DNA of 64,000 bases from Aeoliella straminimaris (lineage in GTDB: Bacteria > Planctomycetota > Planctomycetia > Pirellulales > Lacipirellulaceae). The DNA lies in contig NZ_JAMXLR010000003.1 of NCBI RefSeq assembly GCF_024054565.1, positions 124,001 through 188,000 of the forward strand. Direction: 5' to 3'. Each line of letters opens with the position of its first letter. Within the stretch, counting starts at the first letter, position 1. Below, in pieces: positions 33,208 to 42,818 of the stretch. A program made the translations under genes and the position numbers. The notes under the pieces are model-generated. The model was given only the letters and a program-made list of their open reading frames with translations, was not told where the DNA came from and searched no databases.

Positions 33208-33618
33208 TCAGCATGAGGCGCTCGTCTGCACTTTGACCTCCGCCAGCACATCATCCAGGATCGAGAGAAACTGGTCGCACACGGCCTGATCATGGGCCAA
33301 CGACAGGTAGAGCTTGGTGCCCATCGGATTGAGGAATATGCCGCGGCGGAACAGCTCCAAGGTGATTCGCCGGGCGAGCGAACGATTCATGTGCTGGCTC
33401 GACCAGTAGTCGGTGATTCTGGGGTCGGCGTGCCCCACCAGTACCGAGCCCCAGCCCATGGAAAAGTCGAGCATTTTCTGTCCACTGGCGGTCACCAATC
33501 GGCAACCAGTGCCCGAGTGAATCACGGTCGCGAGATCCTCAGGCAGATTGAATTCGCCGTTGCTACCCGCGGGAAACACGGCCAATGATCGTTGGCTCCA
33601 GGTTGTTGAATTGCTCAT
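33208..33618 (-). pseudogene. Internally deleted class-III aminotransferase
   Basis: A 136-codon frame joins the N-terminus of a glutamate-1-semialdehyde-aminotransferase-like protein (FPAGSNGEF...GWGSVLVGHADPRIT) directly to the C-terminus (LFRRGIFLNPMGTKLYLSLAHDQ). The normal family length is about 430 residues; the missing middle holds the PLP lysine and cofactor pocket, so it cannot be a transaminase. The fusion is in frame and lacks internal stops, so the deletion may be recent. It converges with the phnZ-like gene 9 bp away; an aminotransferase would fit phosphonate metabolism, but that is inference. Confidence 0.72.
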
Positions 33619-36817: not shown

Positions 36818-39800
36818 TTACTTTTTCCGACGTGCCGCGGTAAGGCCCAACAGGCCGCACGCGCCCAGTAGCAGCCCGAGCGAAGTGGGTTCGGGAACCG
36901 CCAGCATGGCGGCCGATGGGGTACCGACGGCGCCAAAATTGTCGCGCCAGCGGGTGTAGTCGTCGCCGTCGACGCCCTCGGTCGGATCGTTAGGCAGGGC
37001 CGTCGACGAACCCAGATGGTTGCGCCACACGGTGTAGTCGGCGATGTCGACCATGCCATCGTCGTTGTAGTCGCCAAACAGCAGTTGGGGAGCCACTCCG
37101 GTATACATAACACGGGCGTCGTACACGTCGCCGTCGGAGTTCATCCATTGCAGCACCACGTCTTCGGATCGCAACAAGGCGTTATAGCCGGCGCCGAGAG
37201 ACAGCCCCGTTGTGCCGGCAGCCAGTGTCGACCCATCGGACCAGTAGCCCTCGACCAGGCGGGATTCACTTGACCCGCCGCCAATCTCCCAACCATTGCC
37301 GGTGCCGTTGCCCAGCGGGAACGACGCGGTGTCGCCTCCAATGCCATCGAATTCGCCTGGCAGCAACCCACCACCGGCGCTGCTGATGGTGATATTCCGC
37401 ATCTCGATGCCCGTGGCGCCCGCTTCGTTGTTGCTGAGCGTCATCTCGCCGCTGGCCCGGTCGATCTTCAGCACCACATCGCCAGGCCCGGAGAGCAGAC
37501 GAAACTCGTGCCCCCCAATATTGTTAGTGGGGCGGCTGGTGGACACTTCCGAAGCCGTGAGCCGTACGGCAACGTAGCGCCCCGCGTGCGTGCCGGAAAG
37601 CGTGAAGGGATACAATTTACTGTTGAGTAAACGATCGTCCGTAGCGCCGAGGCTGAAACTCGCGTCGGGCGAGGTTCCCGGCAGAACGCCGCCGAAGTCG
37701 GAGTTGCTAAACCAGAACTCAAACTTGCCAACACGGTCGGCCGTCGGATCGGCACCCGATCGCTGAGCGTAGGCAAACCAGTTGGCCGACACCGAGGAAC
37801 CGTAATCCATGAACAAGGTCATCGGCCCCACTCCGTCGCCCGCGTACTGGTCGAGATCCGCGGTCAGATCATTGTAGTCCAACAGGAACAGCTCGGTGTT
37901 GATATTGTTGCCTTCGTCCAGGTAGGTGTCGTCGAACAGCTTCTCGGGCCCCTGGGTCTCTTGGTCGTTAGCCTGTCCTTCGGGAATGGTAATCGAGGGC
38001 AACCCTCCCACTACCGAAAACTCCTGTGCCGCAGCGTTATCGGTGGTCGCCAACACACCCACTATCAACACGGCAGCCGTCGCCAAGGCCGCGGCCGCAC
38101 GACGCCGCATCTGCACCATGCCCAGCGCGGCAGCCACTGCCACCAAGGCCACCGAACTCGGTTCCGGCACGGCCGTGCCGAACAAAGCCGCCATGCCGCC
38201 GGCCGAGGTGACCAGCATCTGGAAATCGTACTGATCGCTATCGAAATCGCCATCCAGATCGCCACCAAGGTAGGCCTGCGCGGCAGTGGCATCGAGGTAA
38301 TCGCTGCCGTAGCCCTGGCGAAACACTTGCCAGTCGTTGAAGTCGACCACGCCATCGCCGGTGTAGTCGCCCGCAACAATCTCGTCGCCAACGTACTCGA
38401 CGCCGTCCGCGATGGCGGCTCCGTTTTCGTCGAGCAACTGGAAGATCAGGTCTTCGTAGCTGCTGGGAGCAATCGACCACAGGTTGCCCAAACTATAGGT
38501 GGCGCCGGCCGCCAGGGTGATGCCGTTGTCGTCGCCGCCCGCGGTATCGGCTTCGCTCACCTTCGCCTCGCTGGAGTCTGGGTCTTCGAGCCAAGTGTCG
38601 CCCGGATCGCCGCCGCTCGCCGCGACCGATTGCCATCCAGCGATGTTAATGATCTGCGAGCTCGTCGACGATAGGGAGTATCCCGAGAACGTGACATCCT
38701 GGTCGGCACGGATCATCACTTCGCCACTGCTCCGATCGACAACCAGCGTGGCCGGATCGTCGATGAAGAACTCCACTTCGGCAATTTGCATCGAGTTCGT
38801 GGCGCCCGCATTGCGGAGCGTGGGAAACACCATCCGGTACGAACTGAACGCCCCGGCTGTGTTATTGACCTCTACGATTGGCCCATTGGCGGTCCGGTCG
38901 GTCGGCAGTTCCACCTCGCCCGAATCGATGAGTGTCCAGTTTTCTTCGTTCCCGGCGCTGTTGTCGGTGGAAGTGATCGGATCGTTGGTGCCGTACAGTT
39001 CCCAGGAGGTCGGGTCGCGATCGGGAATATCGTTGGCGGTGGTAAGCTGGAAGCTGGTGACCGCGTACGATCCTTTGGAGGGCGTCACAATGAAACCGGA
39101 ATTTTCTTTGCCGAAGTTCAGGTACTTGGTGCCGTAGTTCTGATCGATGGCCTGGGGCGCCTCTTGAGTTCCACCACCCGAACCGGTTCGACTCTGGGAC
39201 GTATAGTCGACGTCGCGGATCGAGATGATCGGATTACCAAACGAAAGCAAGTTCGAGCCCGTGCCATCCAGCGAGCTGTAAAACCCGATATCGGCCAGCT
39301 GCGTCAGGTTCTGGCCCGGATCCTTCATGCTGGGCCATACCATCTTGTACGAAGCGTAGGAGACCGCATTGCTGAATCCCACCGGTTCGGCGATCGTTTG
39401 CCGGGCTGAGGGTAGCGCCAGGTCGCCCATCGAGATTAGCGTCCAGTCTTCATCGCGGCCGTTGCTGGCCTCGGTGCTGGTGATTGGATCGTTGGTGCCG
39501 TACAGCAAGTACTCCGCGGGGTCGCGTCCCTCGGCATCGTTAGCCGTAGTCATCACGAAGCTTTGCACGATGGACGAAGAGGAAGGCGTTACGATGAAGC
39601 CGGCATTGTCGCCACCACGGTTCAAGGTCTTGGTACCCGAGTCGCCATCCAGCAGCAGGTCGGCCAATTGGCCATCACGCACATCGCTCCCAGTGCTGGC
39701 ATCGAGGTCAATCGCCAGGATGGGGTCGCCCGGCGAGAGAATGTTAAGCGCCGCGGCCTCTCTGGCCGCCAGCAGCACGGTAAGGGCCGCGATCAGACGC

Positions 39801-39820
39801 AGCGAATGAGAACATCCCAT
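36818..39820 (-). CDS. Double PEP-CTERM polyprotein (1000 aa)
   Basis: Two complete exported precursors in one frame. Module 1 (1-~570): signal peptide ending EAAA, two discoidin-like blocks (TLNRGGDNAGFIVTPS and TKYLNFGKENSGFIVTPS, each followed by TTAND..RDP...YGTND), dockerin-like repeats (DYTGDGVVDFNDW), then VPEP at 551 and a membrane helix. Immediately after, MRRRAAAALATAAVLIVGVL forms an internal signal peptide cut after DNAAA (598). Module 2 (~599-1000): a beta-sandwich with GKFEFWFSNSDFGG, dockerin repeats (DYNDDGMVDIADYTVW) and a final VPEP at 975 with basic tail. An in-frame Met571 precedes the internal signal but has no ribosome-binding site. Module 1 is a close paralogue of the next gene upstream. 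Confidence 0.85.
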   Translation of the reverse strand: MGCSHSLRLIAALTVLLAAREAAALNILSPGDPILAIDLDASTGSDVRDGQLADLLLDGDSGTKTLNRGGDNAGFIVTPSSSSIVQSFVMTTANDAEGRDPAEYLLYGTNDPITSTEASNGRDEDWTLISMGDLALPSARQTIAEPVGFSNAVSYASYKMVWPSMKDPGQNLTQLADIGFYSSLDGTGSNLLSFGNPIISIRDVDYTSQSRTGSGGGTQEAPQAIDQNYGTKYLNFGKENSGFIVTPSKGSYAVTSFQLTTANDIPDRDPTSWELYGTNDPITSTDNSAGNEENWTLIDSGEVELPTDRTANGPIVEVNNTAGAFSSYRMVFPTLRNAGATNSMQIAEVEFFIDDPATLVVDRSSGEVMIRADQDVTFSGYSLSSTSSQIINIAGWQSVAASGGDPGDTWLEDPDSSEAKVSEADTAGGDDNGITLAAGATYSLGNLWSIAPSSYEDLIFQLLDENGAAIADGVEYVGDEIVAGDYTGDGVVDFNDWQVFRQGYGSDYLDATAAQAYLGGDLDGDFDSDQYDFQMLVTSAGGMAALFGTAVPEPSSVALVAVAAALGMVQMRRRAAAALATAAVLIVGVLATTDNAAAQEFSVVGGLPSITIPEGQANDQETQGPEKLFDDTYLDEGNNINTELFLLDYNDLTADLDQYAGDGVGPMTLFMDYGSSVSANWFAYAQRSGADPTADRVGKFEFWFSNSDFGGVLPGTSPDASFSLGATDDRLLNSKLYPFTLSGTHAGRYVAVRLTASEVSTSRPTNNIGGHEFRLLSGPGDVVLKIDRASGEMTLSNNEAGATGIEMRNITISSAGGGLLPGEFDGIGGDTASFPLGNGTGNGWEIGGGSSESRLVEGYWSDGSTLAAGTTGLSLGAGYNALLRSEDVVLQWMNSDGDVYDARVMYTGVAPQLLFGDYNDDGMVDIADYTVWRNHLGSSTALPNDPTEGVDGDDYTRWRDNFGAVGTPSAAMLAVPEPTSLGLLLGACGLLGLTAARRKK

Positions 39821-39961
39821 GGTTGAACCACCTTGTGGTAACAGACAGATACGATGGAAGGAGACTCGAAGGTGAAGAGTGACAAGCCGACTCTCGGAAT
39901 CTATACGTGGCCCGCCAAACCAACAGCGATCGAGAACAGTGATAGGGGTACGCCAGCCGAG

Positions 39962-41137
39962 CTATTCGAGTTTGTTGCGTCGGCGCCATGCGAACAGCGA
40001 TGCCGCCACGCCCAGGCAAAGGACAGCCGTGCTGGGTTCCGGGACTCTGGTCCCGATCAATTGGATCTCGGCAATCTGCATGGAATTCGCACCGCCGCTG
40101 TTGCGCAGCGTCGGAAAGACCAGTCGGTACGAGGTAAAGGCACCGCCTGCGTTTTCCACCGACACCAGGGATCCCACCGTTAGTCGTTCGTTGGGAAGTT
40201 CCAGCGAGCCCGTGTCGATCAGCGTCCAATCCTCTGACTGGCCATCCGTGTTGTATACCGACGTCACGTCGTCGTTGGTGCCGTACAGCTCCCACGAGGC
40301 AGGATCGCGCTCGGGGGCGTCGTTGGCAGTGGTGAGCTGAAAACCGTCGACAATTGATAGCCCCGCCGAAGGAGTCACGATGATGCCGGTGTTGTCTTTG
40401 CCGAAGTTCAGGTACTTGGTGCCCGGGTCCTGGTCGATGGCCTGGGCCGCCTCCTGGGTTCCGTCGGACGAGCCGGTTCGGCTGTCGTACTGGTAATCGA
40501 CGTCGCGAATGGAAAGAATCGGATCGCCTAACGTCAGCAGGTTGGCGCCTGTACCATCCAGCGAGCTATAGAATCCGATGTCGGCCAACTGCGTCAGATT
40601 CTGGCCGGTGTCCTTCATGGTGGGCCAGACCATTTTGTACGAAGAGTAGGAGACCGCGTTACTGAACCCCACTGGGTCGGCCACCGACTGACGGTCCGAG
40701 GGCAGCGCCAGGTCGCCCATCGAAATCAGTGTCCAATCTTCTTGGCGGCCGTTGCTGGCTTCGGTGCTGGTGACCGGATCGTTGGTGCCGTACAGCAGGT
40801 ACGAAGCGGGATCGCGACCCTCGGAGTCGTTGGCCGTGGTCATGACTAAGCTTTGCACAATCGAGGCCACCGACGGCGTTACGATGAAGCCAGCGTTGTC
40901 GCCACCGCGGTTCAGGGTCTTGGTACCCGAGTCGCCATCGAGCAACAGGTCGGCCAATTGGCCGTCGCGCACATCGCTTCCGGTGGAGATATCCAAGTCG
41001 ATTGCCAGCACCGGGTCGCCGGGCGAGATCAACTCAATGGCGTGCGATGCCGGGGCCGCGAGCGAAAGCGTGGCCACCGCCATCAGGCAATAGGCCGCAT
41101 TGGTAGTGAGGTCGCGCAGAGGGTGAGTTTTCTTCAT
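39962..41137 (-). CDS. PEP-CTERM protein, discoidin-like (391 aa)
   Basis: An exported protein with signal peptide ending PASHA and two discoidin-like blocks (TLNRGGDNAGFIVTPS; TKYLNFGKDNTGIIVTPS), each continuing TTAND...RDPASY/WELYGTND. The sorting tag VPEPSTAVLCLGVAASLFAW with RRRNKLE ends the protein. Its first ~355 residues align almost without gaps to module 1 of the 1000-aa polyprotein just downstream, so the two arose by tandem duplication. It lacks the dockerin-like repeats found there. It is a single-module precursor, the ordinary PEP-CTERM layout. Confidence 0.9.
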   Translation of the reverse strand: MKKTHPLRDLTTNAAYCLMAVATLSLAAPASHAIELISPGDPVLAIDLDISTGSDVRDGQLADLLLDGDSGTKTLNRGGDNAGFIVTPSVASIVQSLVMTTANDSEGRDPASYLLYGTNDPVTSTEASNGRQEDWTLISMGDLALPSDRQSVADPVGFSNAVSYSSYKMVWPTMKDTGQNLTQLADIGFYSSLDGTGANLLTLGDPILSIRDVDYQYDSRTGSSDGTQEAAQAIDQDPGTKYLNFGKDNTGIIVTPSAGLSIVDGFQLTTANDAPERDPASWELYGTNDDVTSVYNTDGQSEDWTLIDTGSLELPNERLTVGSLVSVENAGGAFTSYRLVFPTLRNSGGANSMQIAEIQLIGTRVPEPSTAVLCLGVAASLFAWRRRNKLE

Positions 41138-41230: not shown

Positions 41231-42301
41231 CTACCGCCGGCTGTACTCTTTGATCTCGCCACCATCGTTGCGATGGCCCATCTGGCGGAACACTTGCGGG
41301 TCGACGTCGTAGTTCACGACGCTTACCGAGCTATCGCAATTCGAGAACAGGCAACCGCCAGGATGTGCGCTGCCGAAGGCTTCTCGGGCAGCCAGGTCGG
41401 TGAGCGAGTAGGTTTCGTCGGCGTCGCTGCGAGGAATGTGATCCGCGTTGCGTCCGTCGTAGTAGGTCGATCGCACGGTGTCGTCCTGAAAACCTGTGTA
41501 CATCGACCAGTCGTCGGCCTTGAAGTAGACTTCGCCCGTGTACGATTGCACTGGCACCCATCGTTCACCGAGTGCGATGGTGTTGCTCAAGCCATCGGTT
41601 ATCTGGCGAAACTTCACCGCCGTGCCGCAGAACGTCACGCCGTTGAATTCCGATACTCGAGGGGGAAATCCGGCCGGCAACGAAGAGTAGTTACCGGGTG
41701 AGATCTCTTGGCACTTCTGGTCGTAGCCGGTGGCGTCGCCCACGTTCGAGGCATAGTCGCTACGAGCGCCCTGAGGTTGGCCGTACGAAATCACTCCTCC
41801 CTTGCCGTCGCCAGATCTGGCGGTCCACCCACTCGAGGAATAGGGGCTCATACCACTTTGCGGGTACGGGCCACCTTTGCGGCGCGAGGGACAGTTCAGC
41901 ACGCCCACCGGCGTGGCATCGCGTTCGGCCAGCAGTACACCACGCGCAGCACCCGTGGCGCCGCTACCGGTGTCGTACAGTGCCTGCTCCTCGATATAAG
42001 GCAGCAGTGCGAAGATCCAACCGCCGGGCTGAGTGTGATCGAGCCCTCGGTCGGGGTCGCCCGTCCAGTTTCCTCGCCATCCCGAGGAGGGCAAACGTCC
42101 CGTGGCCGACTCGAGATTGGCCATCGCCAGGGTGAGGTTCTTGAGATTACTGGTGCAATTGGCGCGGCGAGCGGCCTCGCGTGCCGCCTGCACTGCCGGT
42201 AACAGCAGAGCCACCAGAATGCCAATGATGGCAATGACAACCAACAGCTCAACCAGCGTAAATCCATTTCGGACCGATGGTTTCATTCGGACGAGTCGCA
42301 T
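41231..42301 (-). CDS. DUF1559 prepilin-like protein
   Basis: A 356-aa pseudopilin. [20 protein letters not shown] is the prepilin motif and membrane helix, followed by [28 protein letters not shown]. The C-terminal portion has HPGGCLFSNCDSSV, where the family usually has H-DG (here N-C-D), and ends DPQVFRQMGHRNDGG. AAGGA lies before the ATG at 42301; a GTG directly before it is an alternative. This gene and the one at 24664-25782 bracket the PEP-CTERM region on the same strand. Confidence 0.91.
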   Translation of the reverse strand: MRLVRMKPSVRNGFTLVELLVVIAIIGILVALLLPAVQAAREAARRANCTSNLKNLTLAMANLESATGRLPSSGWRGNWTGDPDRGLDHTQPGGWIFALLPYIEEQALYDTGSGATGAARGVLLAERDATPVGVLNCPSRRKGGPYPQSGMSPYSSSGWTARSGDGKGGVISYGQPQGARSDYASNVGDATGYDQKCQEISPGNYSSLPAGFPPRVSEFNGVTFCGTAVKFRQITDGLSNTIALGERWVPVQSYTGEVYFKADDWSMYTGFQDDTVRSTYYDGRNADHIPRSDADETYSLTDLAAREAFGSAHPGGCLFSNCDSSVSVVNYDVDPQVFRQMGHRNDGGEIKEYSRR

Positions 42302-42818
42302 CACGAGTCCTTATCTTTGCCATGCTGCCAAATGGCAGGAGTTTGCCAACTGCAGCACGTGCGGACGAACGCTACTCGCCGCCCGGCTTGAAGCGAAACT
42401 AGGTTACAGCTCCAAGGTGCCTGCCGCCTCCATCCGAAACACAAGCCGGGCGGCACGCCCTGGAGCATGGAGAAGCCTTCCCCAACATCTGCTAATACCA
42501 CCAAGCGCCGTTTTGTGGCGGTTGACTTTGAAAGATTTTCATCCCCTGCAGGGAACCGAGGGCTGCGGCTCCAGAACAGCGGGTAGGTGCAGATTCTGGA
42601 CGCCCTCCCGCCCGCCTGCCTTCGCCCACCCGACGCCCGGACGGTTGGCGCTTCGCACAAAGAAGGACAAGCTGGGAACCATTGCGAAGTCGCCGTGGGC
42701 TACCGACGCGGGGAAATCGGTTTCCAGCAACTAGAAATCGGCAAGTCGACGCTGCTTCACGGCGACCGACCCAGCGGAGTGGAGTGCCAACCGAGTGGAG
42801 CGACCTCGCGCGTGCCAG
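42302..42818. other. Gene-free stretch of 517 bp
   Basis: It lies upstream of the DUF1559 gene and downstream of the GYF_2 gene on the minus strand. Frames are short. I recognise no riboswitch or RNA gene in it, though it is long for a promoter region and GC-rich. Confidence 0.45.

Follow-up and report, generated by a model that had tools for sequence, protein, structure and literature searches.

The 1000-aa reading frame P0001 carries a PEP-CTERM sorting tag in mid-protein, directly followed by a second signal peptide, which raises the question of whether this locus encodes a chain that is taken apart after translation, a single uncut protein, two overlapping products, or an accident of fusion. 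PEP-CTERM was placed near the extreme C terminus of its proteins by Haft et al. 2006 (PMC1569441), who regarded the very few located elsewhere as perhaps non-functional. We consider it quite likely that P0001 is a genuine polyprotein with the architecture (signal peptide - extracellular module - PEP-CTERM) x 2, made by translation as a single chain that signal peptidase I and exosortase cut at each junction; we infer the cleavage itself from the conserved motifs described below. The features of the window (the whole 64,000-nucleotide stretch of DNA that was analyzed) are collected in Table 1.

Table 1. Features of P0001 and its neighbors, in coordinates of the window
Feature	Coordinates	Strand	Evidence or remark
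P0001, whole frame, two-unit polyprotein, 1000 aa, 104.9 kDa precursor	36818..39820	-	
AAGGTGG, Shine-Dalgarno-like, 5' of first ATG	39828..39834	-	upstream sequence TCTGTTACCACAAGGTGGTTCAACC-ATG
N-terminal signal peptide, residues 1-25, MGCSHSLRLIAALTVLLAAREAAAL	39746..39820	-	sequence; helix in AF2 model
Module 1, discoidin/CBM32-like domain 1, residues 26-190	39251..39745	-	AF2 model; Foldseek to CBM32 pair 7jnd, E 4.9e-8
Module 1, discoidin/CBM32-like domain 2, residues 198-355	38756..39229	-	Pfam search, AF2 model, Foldseek
Module 1, LTD-like beta domain, residues 357-478	38387..38752	-	AF2 model; homology to P0002 region
Module 1, EF-hand/dockerin-like segment, residues 485-545	38186..38368	-	repeats GDYTGDGVVDFNDW..GGDLDGDFDSDQYDF; Asp/Gly invariant in alignment A2
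Internal PEP-CTERM tag (VPEP, helix, MRRR), residues 551-574	38099..38170	-	second TIGR02595/PF07589 stretch; VPEP in 13/13 homologues
Internal signal peptide, residues 571-598, MRRR common with tag, predicted cut between A598 and Q599	38027..38110	-	A598 invariance, small -3
Module 2, discoidin-like domain, residues 599-778	37487..38026	-	AF2 model
Module 2, LTD-like domain, residues 783-908, common to modules of the 1470-aa protein	37097..37474	-	35% over 236 aa
Module 2, dockerin-like EF-hand pair, residues 915-962	36935..37078	-	PF00404 E 7e-4, 20.2 bits, just under the cut-off of 22.9
Terminal PEP-CTERM tag, residues 975-1000	36821..36898	-	TIGR02595 best stretch 975-1000
P0002, three-unit polyprotein of P0001-type architecture, 1470 aa	25931..30343	-	junction tags VPEPSSTILG, VPEPGTVVLL; terminal VPEPSTTVLV
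P0003, single-tag paralogue of module 1, 391 aa	39962..41137	-	71% identity
DUF1559-like gene, prepilin-type N terminus, upstream of P0001/P0003 pair	41231..42304	-	like gene beside orthologous loci L009, L010

The P0001 frame contains no internal stop, and the orthologous frame is open in other species. Both TIGR02595 (36.2 bits; cut-off 16) and PF07589 (35.5 bits; cut-off 20.7) match it over two stretches, and only the second tag is C-terminal, the first being followed by 426 residues. The junction hairpin (residues 551-598) reads, in order, VPEP (551-554), a helix, MRRR (571-574), a second hydrophobic helix, and DNAAA (594-598), after which comes Q599. A signal peptide stands at residues 1-25 and again at 571-598. 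The first-pass annotation had described this succession of VPEP, helix, MRRR, and signal peptide at residues 551-599, and the unbroken frame and the paired Pfam and NCBIfam stretches bear it out.

To describe the modules, we used an AlphaFold2 model built from a 13-sequence alignment (mean pLDDT of 70.7; below 50, hence of low confidence, over the hairpin at 549-598). The model gives module 1 two discoidin-type domains, an LTD-like beta domain, and an EF-hand segment, and gives module 2 one discoidin-like domain, an LTD-like domain, and a dockerin-like pair. The first discoidin/CBM32-like domain has only a sub-threshold match to Pfam F5_F8_type_C, and the P0002 region homologous to the LTD-like domain of module 1 has a weak, sub-threshold match to PF00932 (LTD). 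In Foldseek, the model matched tandem CBM32/F5-8C structures (best E 4.9e-8). On the strength of these structural matches, the P0001 products are likely to be carbohydrate-binding or adhesive surface proteins. The modules had been thought unrelated to those of the 1470-aa protein P0002; this does not hold, since the two proteins have a common LTD-like and dockerin-like tail (35% over 236 aa, E 2e-20).

The comparison with homologues bears on whether the fusion is maintained. P0001 and 12 other fused sequences, 32-73% identical to it, have a common layout in which the internal VPEP is invariant (13/13), as is A598, the signal-peptidase -1 residue; V551-S555 is invariant or nearly so, only A, V, S, or T occurs at position -3, and Q599 is kept in almost every sequence, in contrast to the two junction helices, which diverge. 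One of the 13 comes from the isolate Botrimarina colliarenosi Pla108, and a single-contig genome of the same genus (G003) also carries a fused homologue. Each of the 18 junctions in 12 orthologous pairs has an in-frame junction as its counterpart. Across the hairpin, nonsynonymous change is below synonymous change and codon position 2 is the least changed; pN/pS is 0.57 in the hairpin, 0.74 in the loop, and 0.31 in the flank, so that the junction loop is under weaker constraint than the modules. Altogether, the fused state of P0001 predates the genus, and, at the level of sequence, the unbroken frame, the conserved hairpin, the cross-species constraint, and the recurrence in dozens of proteins indicate that the P0001 junction is translated and constrained.

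These results leave little room for the view that neighboring genes were joined without function, by neutral stop-codon loss or by an assembly error, which we regard as hardly credible. Assembly error is rejected, because independent isolate and single-contig genomes carry the fusion. The same fusion at 32-73% protein identity, the retention of every junction in the orthologous pairs, and the existence of chains with up to 10 tags argue against neutral stop-codon loss as well, even though the raw material for such an accident is plentiful. It is common to find PEP-CTERM genes in tandem, separated by short gaps that are mostly under 200 nt, and the relative frames of these neighbors are random (10/16/13 of 39 pairs); therefore, fusions can arise easily, and the view of internal tags as perhaps non-functional would fit them. 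The 39 pairs show no same-frame excess (10/39), which would have been a hint of stop read-through or recent fission. Orthologues, finished and isolate genomes, and genome-wide recurrence thus lend strong support to the proposal of the first-pass annotation that this is a tolerated or selected design rather than an assembly error.

Since P0001 has a Met in front of RRR at the junction, module 2 could also be made mainly from an internal start at Met571, as in an unfused tandem gene, giving two overlapping products. No Shine-Dalgarno sequence was found before Met571, where the upstream sequence reads GGCTGCCGCGCTGGGCATGGTGCAG-ATG, compared with the AAGGTGG that precedes the first ATG. In addition, the Met is missing from the same-genus orthologue L181 (FGARRRWQRGVV) and from B. 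colliarenosi Pla108 (FARRRLRNALVL). Across all junctions, ATG is present in only 37 of 137 loops, and Met makes up 1.6% of loop residues against an overall background of 1.3%. The median anti-Shine-Dalgarno energy of junction ATGs (-3.1 kcal/mol) is close to that of control internal ATGs (-2.5 kcal/mol) and much weaker than that of N-terminal ATGs (-5.8 kcal/mol). We therefore reject Met571 as an independent start of module 2 in P0001, with neither a ribosome-binding site nor a Met conserved even within the genus, and judge the two-product reading very unlikely for this gene.

Internal initiation may nevertheless occur at some other junctions. A minority with long loops (L164-905, L145-610, L149-271, and L012-950) retain what appears to be a former gene start. 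At residue 905 of the frame L164:2345-6484, a perfect AGGAGG precedes ATGAAG inside the open frame (AGTAGGAGG...ATGAAG, also given as AGTAGGAGGCACAACC-ATGAAG), which makes this junction a natural test of dual initiation. We take such junctions to be young fusions, in which initiation may be dual.

For P0001, the polyprotein reading predicts that signal peptidase acts after the second helix, and the motif found there points in this direction. Among some 136 junction hairpins collected from this and related genomes, 106 have a strict AxA after the second helix. In other proteins, internal helices have such a motif behind them in 40 of 244 cases (Fisher p about 5e-33), so that the hairpin is far above chance; at N-terminal signal peptides of single-tag genes, the count is 52 of 94. 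The junction loops have a mean net charge of +4.2, fitting the positive-inside rule. Two helices and a basic loop would be enough to restore topology, and the hairpin could thus be a re-entry loop only, in an uncleaved multi-pass chain whose modules stay joined like beads with an inner-membrane anchor. We find this improbable: such a chain would not account for an invariant -1 Ala and a rule-abiding -3 position in 13 homologues, for the AxA excess over ordinary helices, or for a VPEP retained at the internal tag. Signal peptidase cutting at the junctions is accordingly the interpretation that the A598 invariance and the AxA excess suggest.

The second enzyme is also encoded in this genome. Two exosortase genes exceed the TIGR02602 cut-off of 105.55, with 121.9 and 114.7 bits. 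The higher-scoring one (L173:5580-10787, G000:C91) lies in one 1736-aa frame with a long PrsT-like TPR protein, and this fusion also has a partial TIGR02917 match of 170 bits. Neither of the two, found by a PF09721 search that may have missed a third enzyme, qualifies as XrtH (28.2 bits against a model cut-off of 86 for one, no listed match for the other).

Altogether, we propose the following sequence of events for the P0001 polyprotein. The N-terminal signal would start Sec export of module 1, and the first PEP-CTERM helix would stop transfer and leave its Arg cluster in the cytoplasm, where the same cluster would double as the n-region of the next signal peptide. The second helix would then re-insert and export module 2. 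A signal peptidase I cut between A598 and Q599 would separate the units, and exosortase would cut or transfer at both VPEP motifs, the internal one (551-554) and the C-terminal one (975-978); since internal tags have no free C-terminal tail, exosortase may need prior signal peptidase action. The predicted mature products are of about 55 kDa (residues 26-551) and 40 kDa (599-975) in a 1:1 ratio, and a short two-helix hairpin would be left over as waste.

The architecture is not limited to this locus. There are 82 TIGR02595 sites in the genome, and in some 70 stretches around such sites, whose counts are lower bounds, we found 30 frames with 44 junctions in which an internal tag is followed by a second hydrophobic helix, each frame having two, three, or four tags. 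One of these (L053) is doubtful for its long loop, leaving at least 29 frames and 43 junctions; P0001 and P0002 both belong to this set. Using a 50-column junction profile (A1), we searched the family for junctions that are full-length, free of stops, and part of a long frame. Among the matches listed, at least 21 of its 43 genomes and at least 10 of its 14 genera have them, and G003 has about 20. The layout was also read by eye in at least eight other families of the order and in two genomes outside it (G242 and G324). Serial tagged chains are therefore a genome-wide and clade-wide architecture. The first-pass annotation had seen in P0001 a second event in one locus; the recurrence stands, and its extent was understated, since the architecture spans the clade and the fusion is older than the genus.

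The longest chain (L144) has 2531 aa and 10 Pfam PEP-CTERM matches, with its 5' end off the contig, followed by L145 (2298 aa, 8 matches). A third, L146 (4594-11874, G086:C14), has 2427 aa and 7 matches; six of its modules are FGE-sulfatase and one is unlike them and propeller-like, and every module comes with a signal peptide and a PEP-CTERM of its own. Modules 2 and 5 of L146 are 87% identical, which suggests that units duplicate whole. Similarly, the orthologous polyproteins L011 and L154 of one genus have 4 and 5 tags, respectively, and the copy number of a PVFEYSFPAS module differs between the species, which shows that whole units are gained or lost. The cargo is diverse across chains (discoidin, laminin-G, FGE, and, in L153, sulfatase), so that the junction does not depend on what it joins. 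As a separate observation, one genome of the same order (G053; G053:C11:57164-57259 and other matches) has giant open frames (12608, 8905, 7330, and 4632 aa) that contain PEP-CTERM tags.

The neighbors in the window bear on how such fusions arise. P0003 had been taken for the unfused ancestor of module 1; it is a real paralogue of that module, and its ancestral status is unsupported. In a 17-row tree of the discoidin pair, in which the deep forks are weak, P0003 and its G003 orthologue form a clade that is sister to the fused pair, and fused members are widespread outside this group. This position indicates a paralogue of equal age rather than a preserved ancestor, and P0003 is, judging from the tree, most likely a shortened duplicate. 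A single-tag discoidin-pair gene stands beside the fused gene, on either side, in several species (window 39962-41137, L181:5742-6950, L201:2096-3238, L009:7925-9022, and L045:4096-5421), so that the two form a recurrent gene pair. The DUF1559-like gene was rejected as an obligatory partner, since only 5 of 30 polyprotein frames have a gene with a prepilin-type N terminus in the 1.5 kb upstream of them. Stop-containing hairpins were likewise rejected as fusion intermediates: in the seven such stretches that we read, they are ordinary terminal tags followed by unrelated sequence. The exception is L190, in which the hairpin stop is succeeded by a new gene that has a start of its own. The most likely origin would be in-frame fusion of short-spaced tandem PEP-CTERM genes, with growth by whole-unit duplication. 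Elsewhere in the window, a 136-aa frame (33208-33618, minus strand) looks, by reading, like a class III aminotransferase (glutamate-1-semialdehyde type) whose two ends are joined without the middle.

We compared these chains with known systems. Each P0001 unit resembles a substrate of the PEP-CTERM/exosortase system (EpsH; TIGR02595/PF07589, TIGR02602) in having a signal peptide and a PEP motif, helix, and basic cluster in a genome that encodes exosortases, but the first tag precedes another signal peptide and tagged unit instead of being C-terminal. The nearest named kind is midcut-by-XrtH (NF033207), by its name an exosortase substrate cut in mid-protein. Membership was rejected: at a cut-off of 45, the NF033207 model has no match to P0001 and gives P0002 10.3 bits, and neither exosortase reaches the XrtH cut-off. 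Internal signal sequences are known from FbcH, a precursor of the bacterial cytochrome bc1 that is one two-part enzyme separated by signal peptidase, and from enveloped-virus polyproteins, whose anchor-plus-signal hairpins are cut by signal peptidase alongside viral proteases. Unlike these, a second enzyme, exosortase, would act at each unit here.

Mid-protein sorting tags themselves have precedents. In 2017, Abdul Halim reportedly described a Haloferax ArtA substrate with the tripartite structure away from the C terminus, and an internally placed LPXTG is said to go back to Navarre and Schneewind in 1994. MXAN_5598 of Myxococcus has one internal MYXO-CTERM, is proposed to be processed in its N-terminal part, and is thought to be a gene fusion, in a myxosortase paper that also cites work on sorting tags functional in mid-protein (PMC11980579). 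In all three, a mid-protein tag is reported or proposed to be processed; however, these are single cases with one internal tag, in contrast to a repeated signal-peptide-plus-tag unit in dozens of proteins per genome. Our literature search for multiple or internal PEP-CTERM returned nothing on several tags in one protein, and none of the papers searched treats exosortase and polyprotein together. Serial tag-plus-signal polyproteins on such a scale thus appear to be undescribed. Since our search found no multi-tag protein and midcut-by-XrtH membership fails, we set P0001-type chains down as a variant in which PEP-CTERM substrates are strung together into serial polyproteins.

Polyproteins are characteristic of viruses, and bacterial ones are, to our knowledge, thought to be rare and seldom described. 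We incline to the view that, in planctomycetes, a large part of the sorted surface proteome is encoded as serial chains of 2-10 units, which signal peptidase and exosortase cut at every junction. One promoter and start would then supply adhesins, lectins, or enzyme-like modules in a fixed stoichiometry, and in-frame fusion and unit duplication would give rise to new proteins. One such gene probably yields two to ten separate proteins, which would affect genome annotation, because each polyprotein gene is now counted as one protein. The architecture also offers a ready-made template for making several surface proteins together in a fixed ratio. Confirmation of the processing would mean that bacteria make tens of proteins per genome as polyproteins and that PEP-CTERM is no longer solely a C-terminal signal. 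It would also open exosortase action, which has never been easy to study, to direct tests on natural multi-tag substrates, including the fate of the hairpin, the order of signal peptidase action, and attachment at the PEP site.
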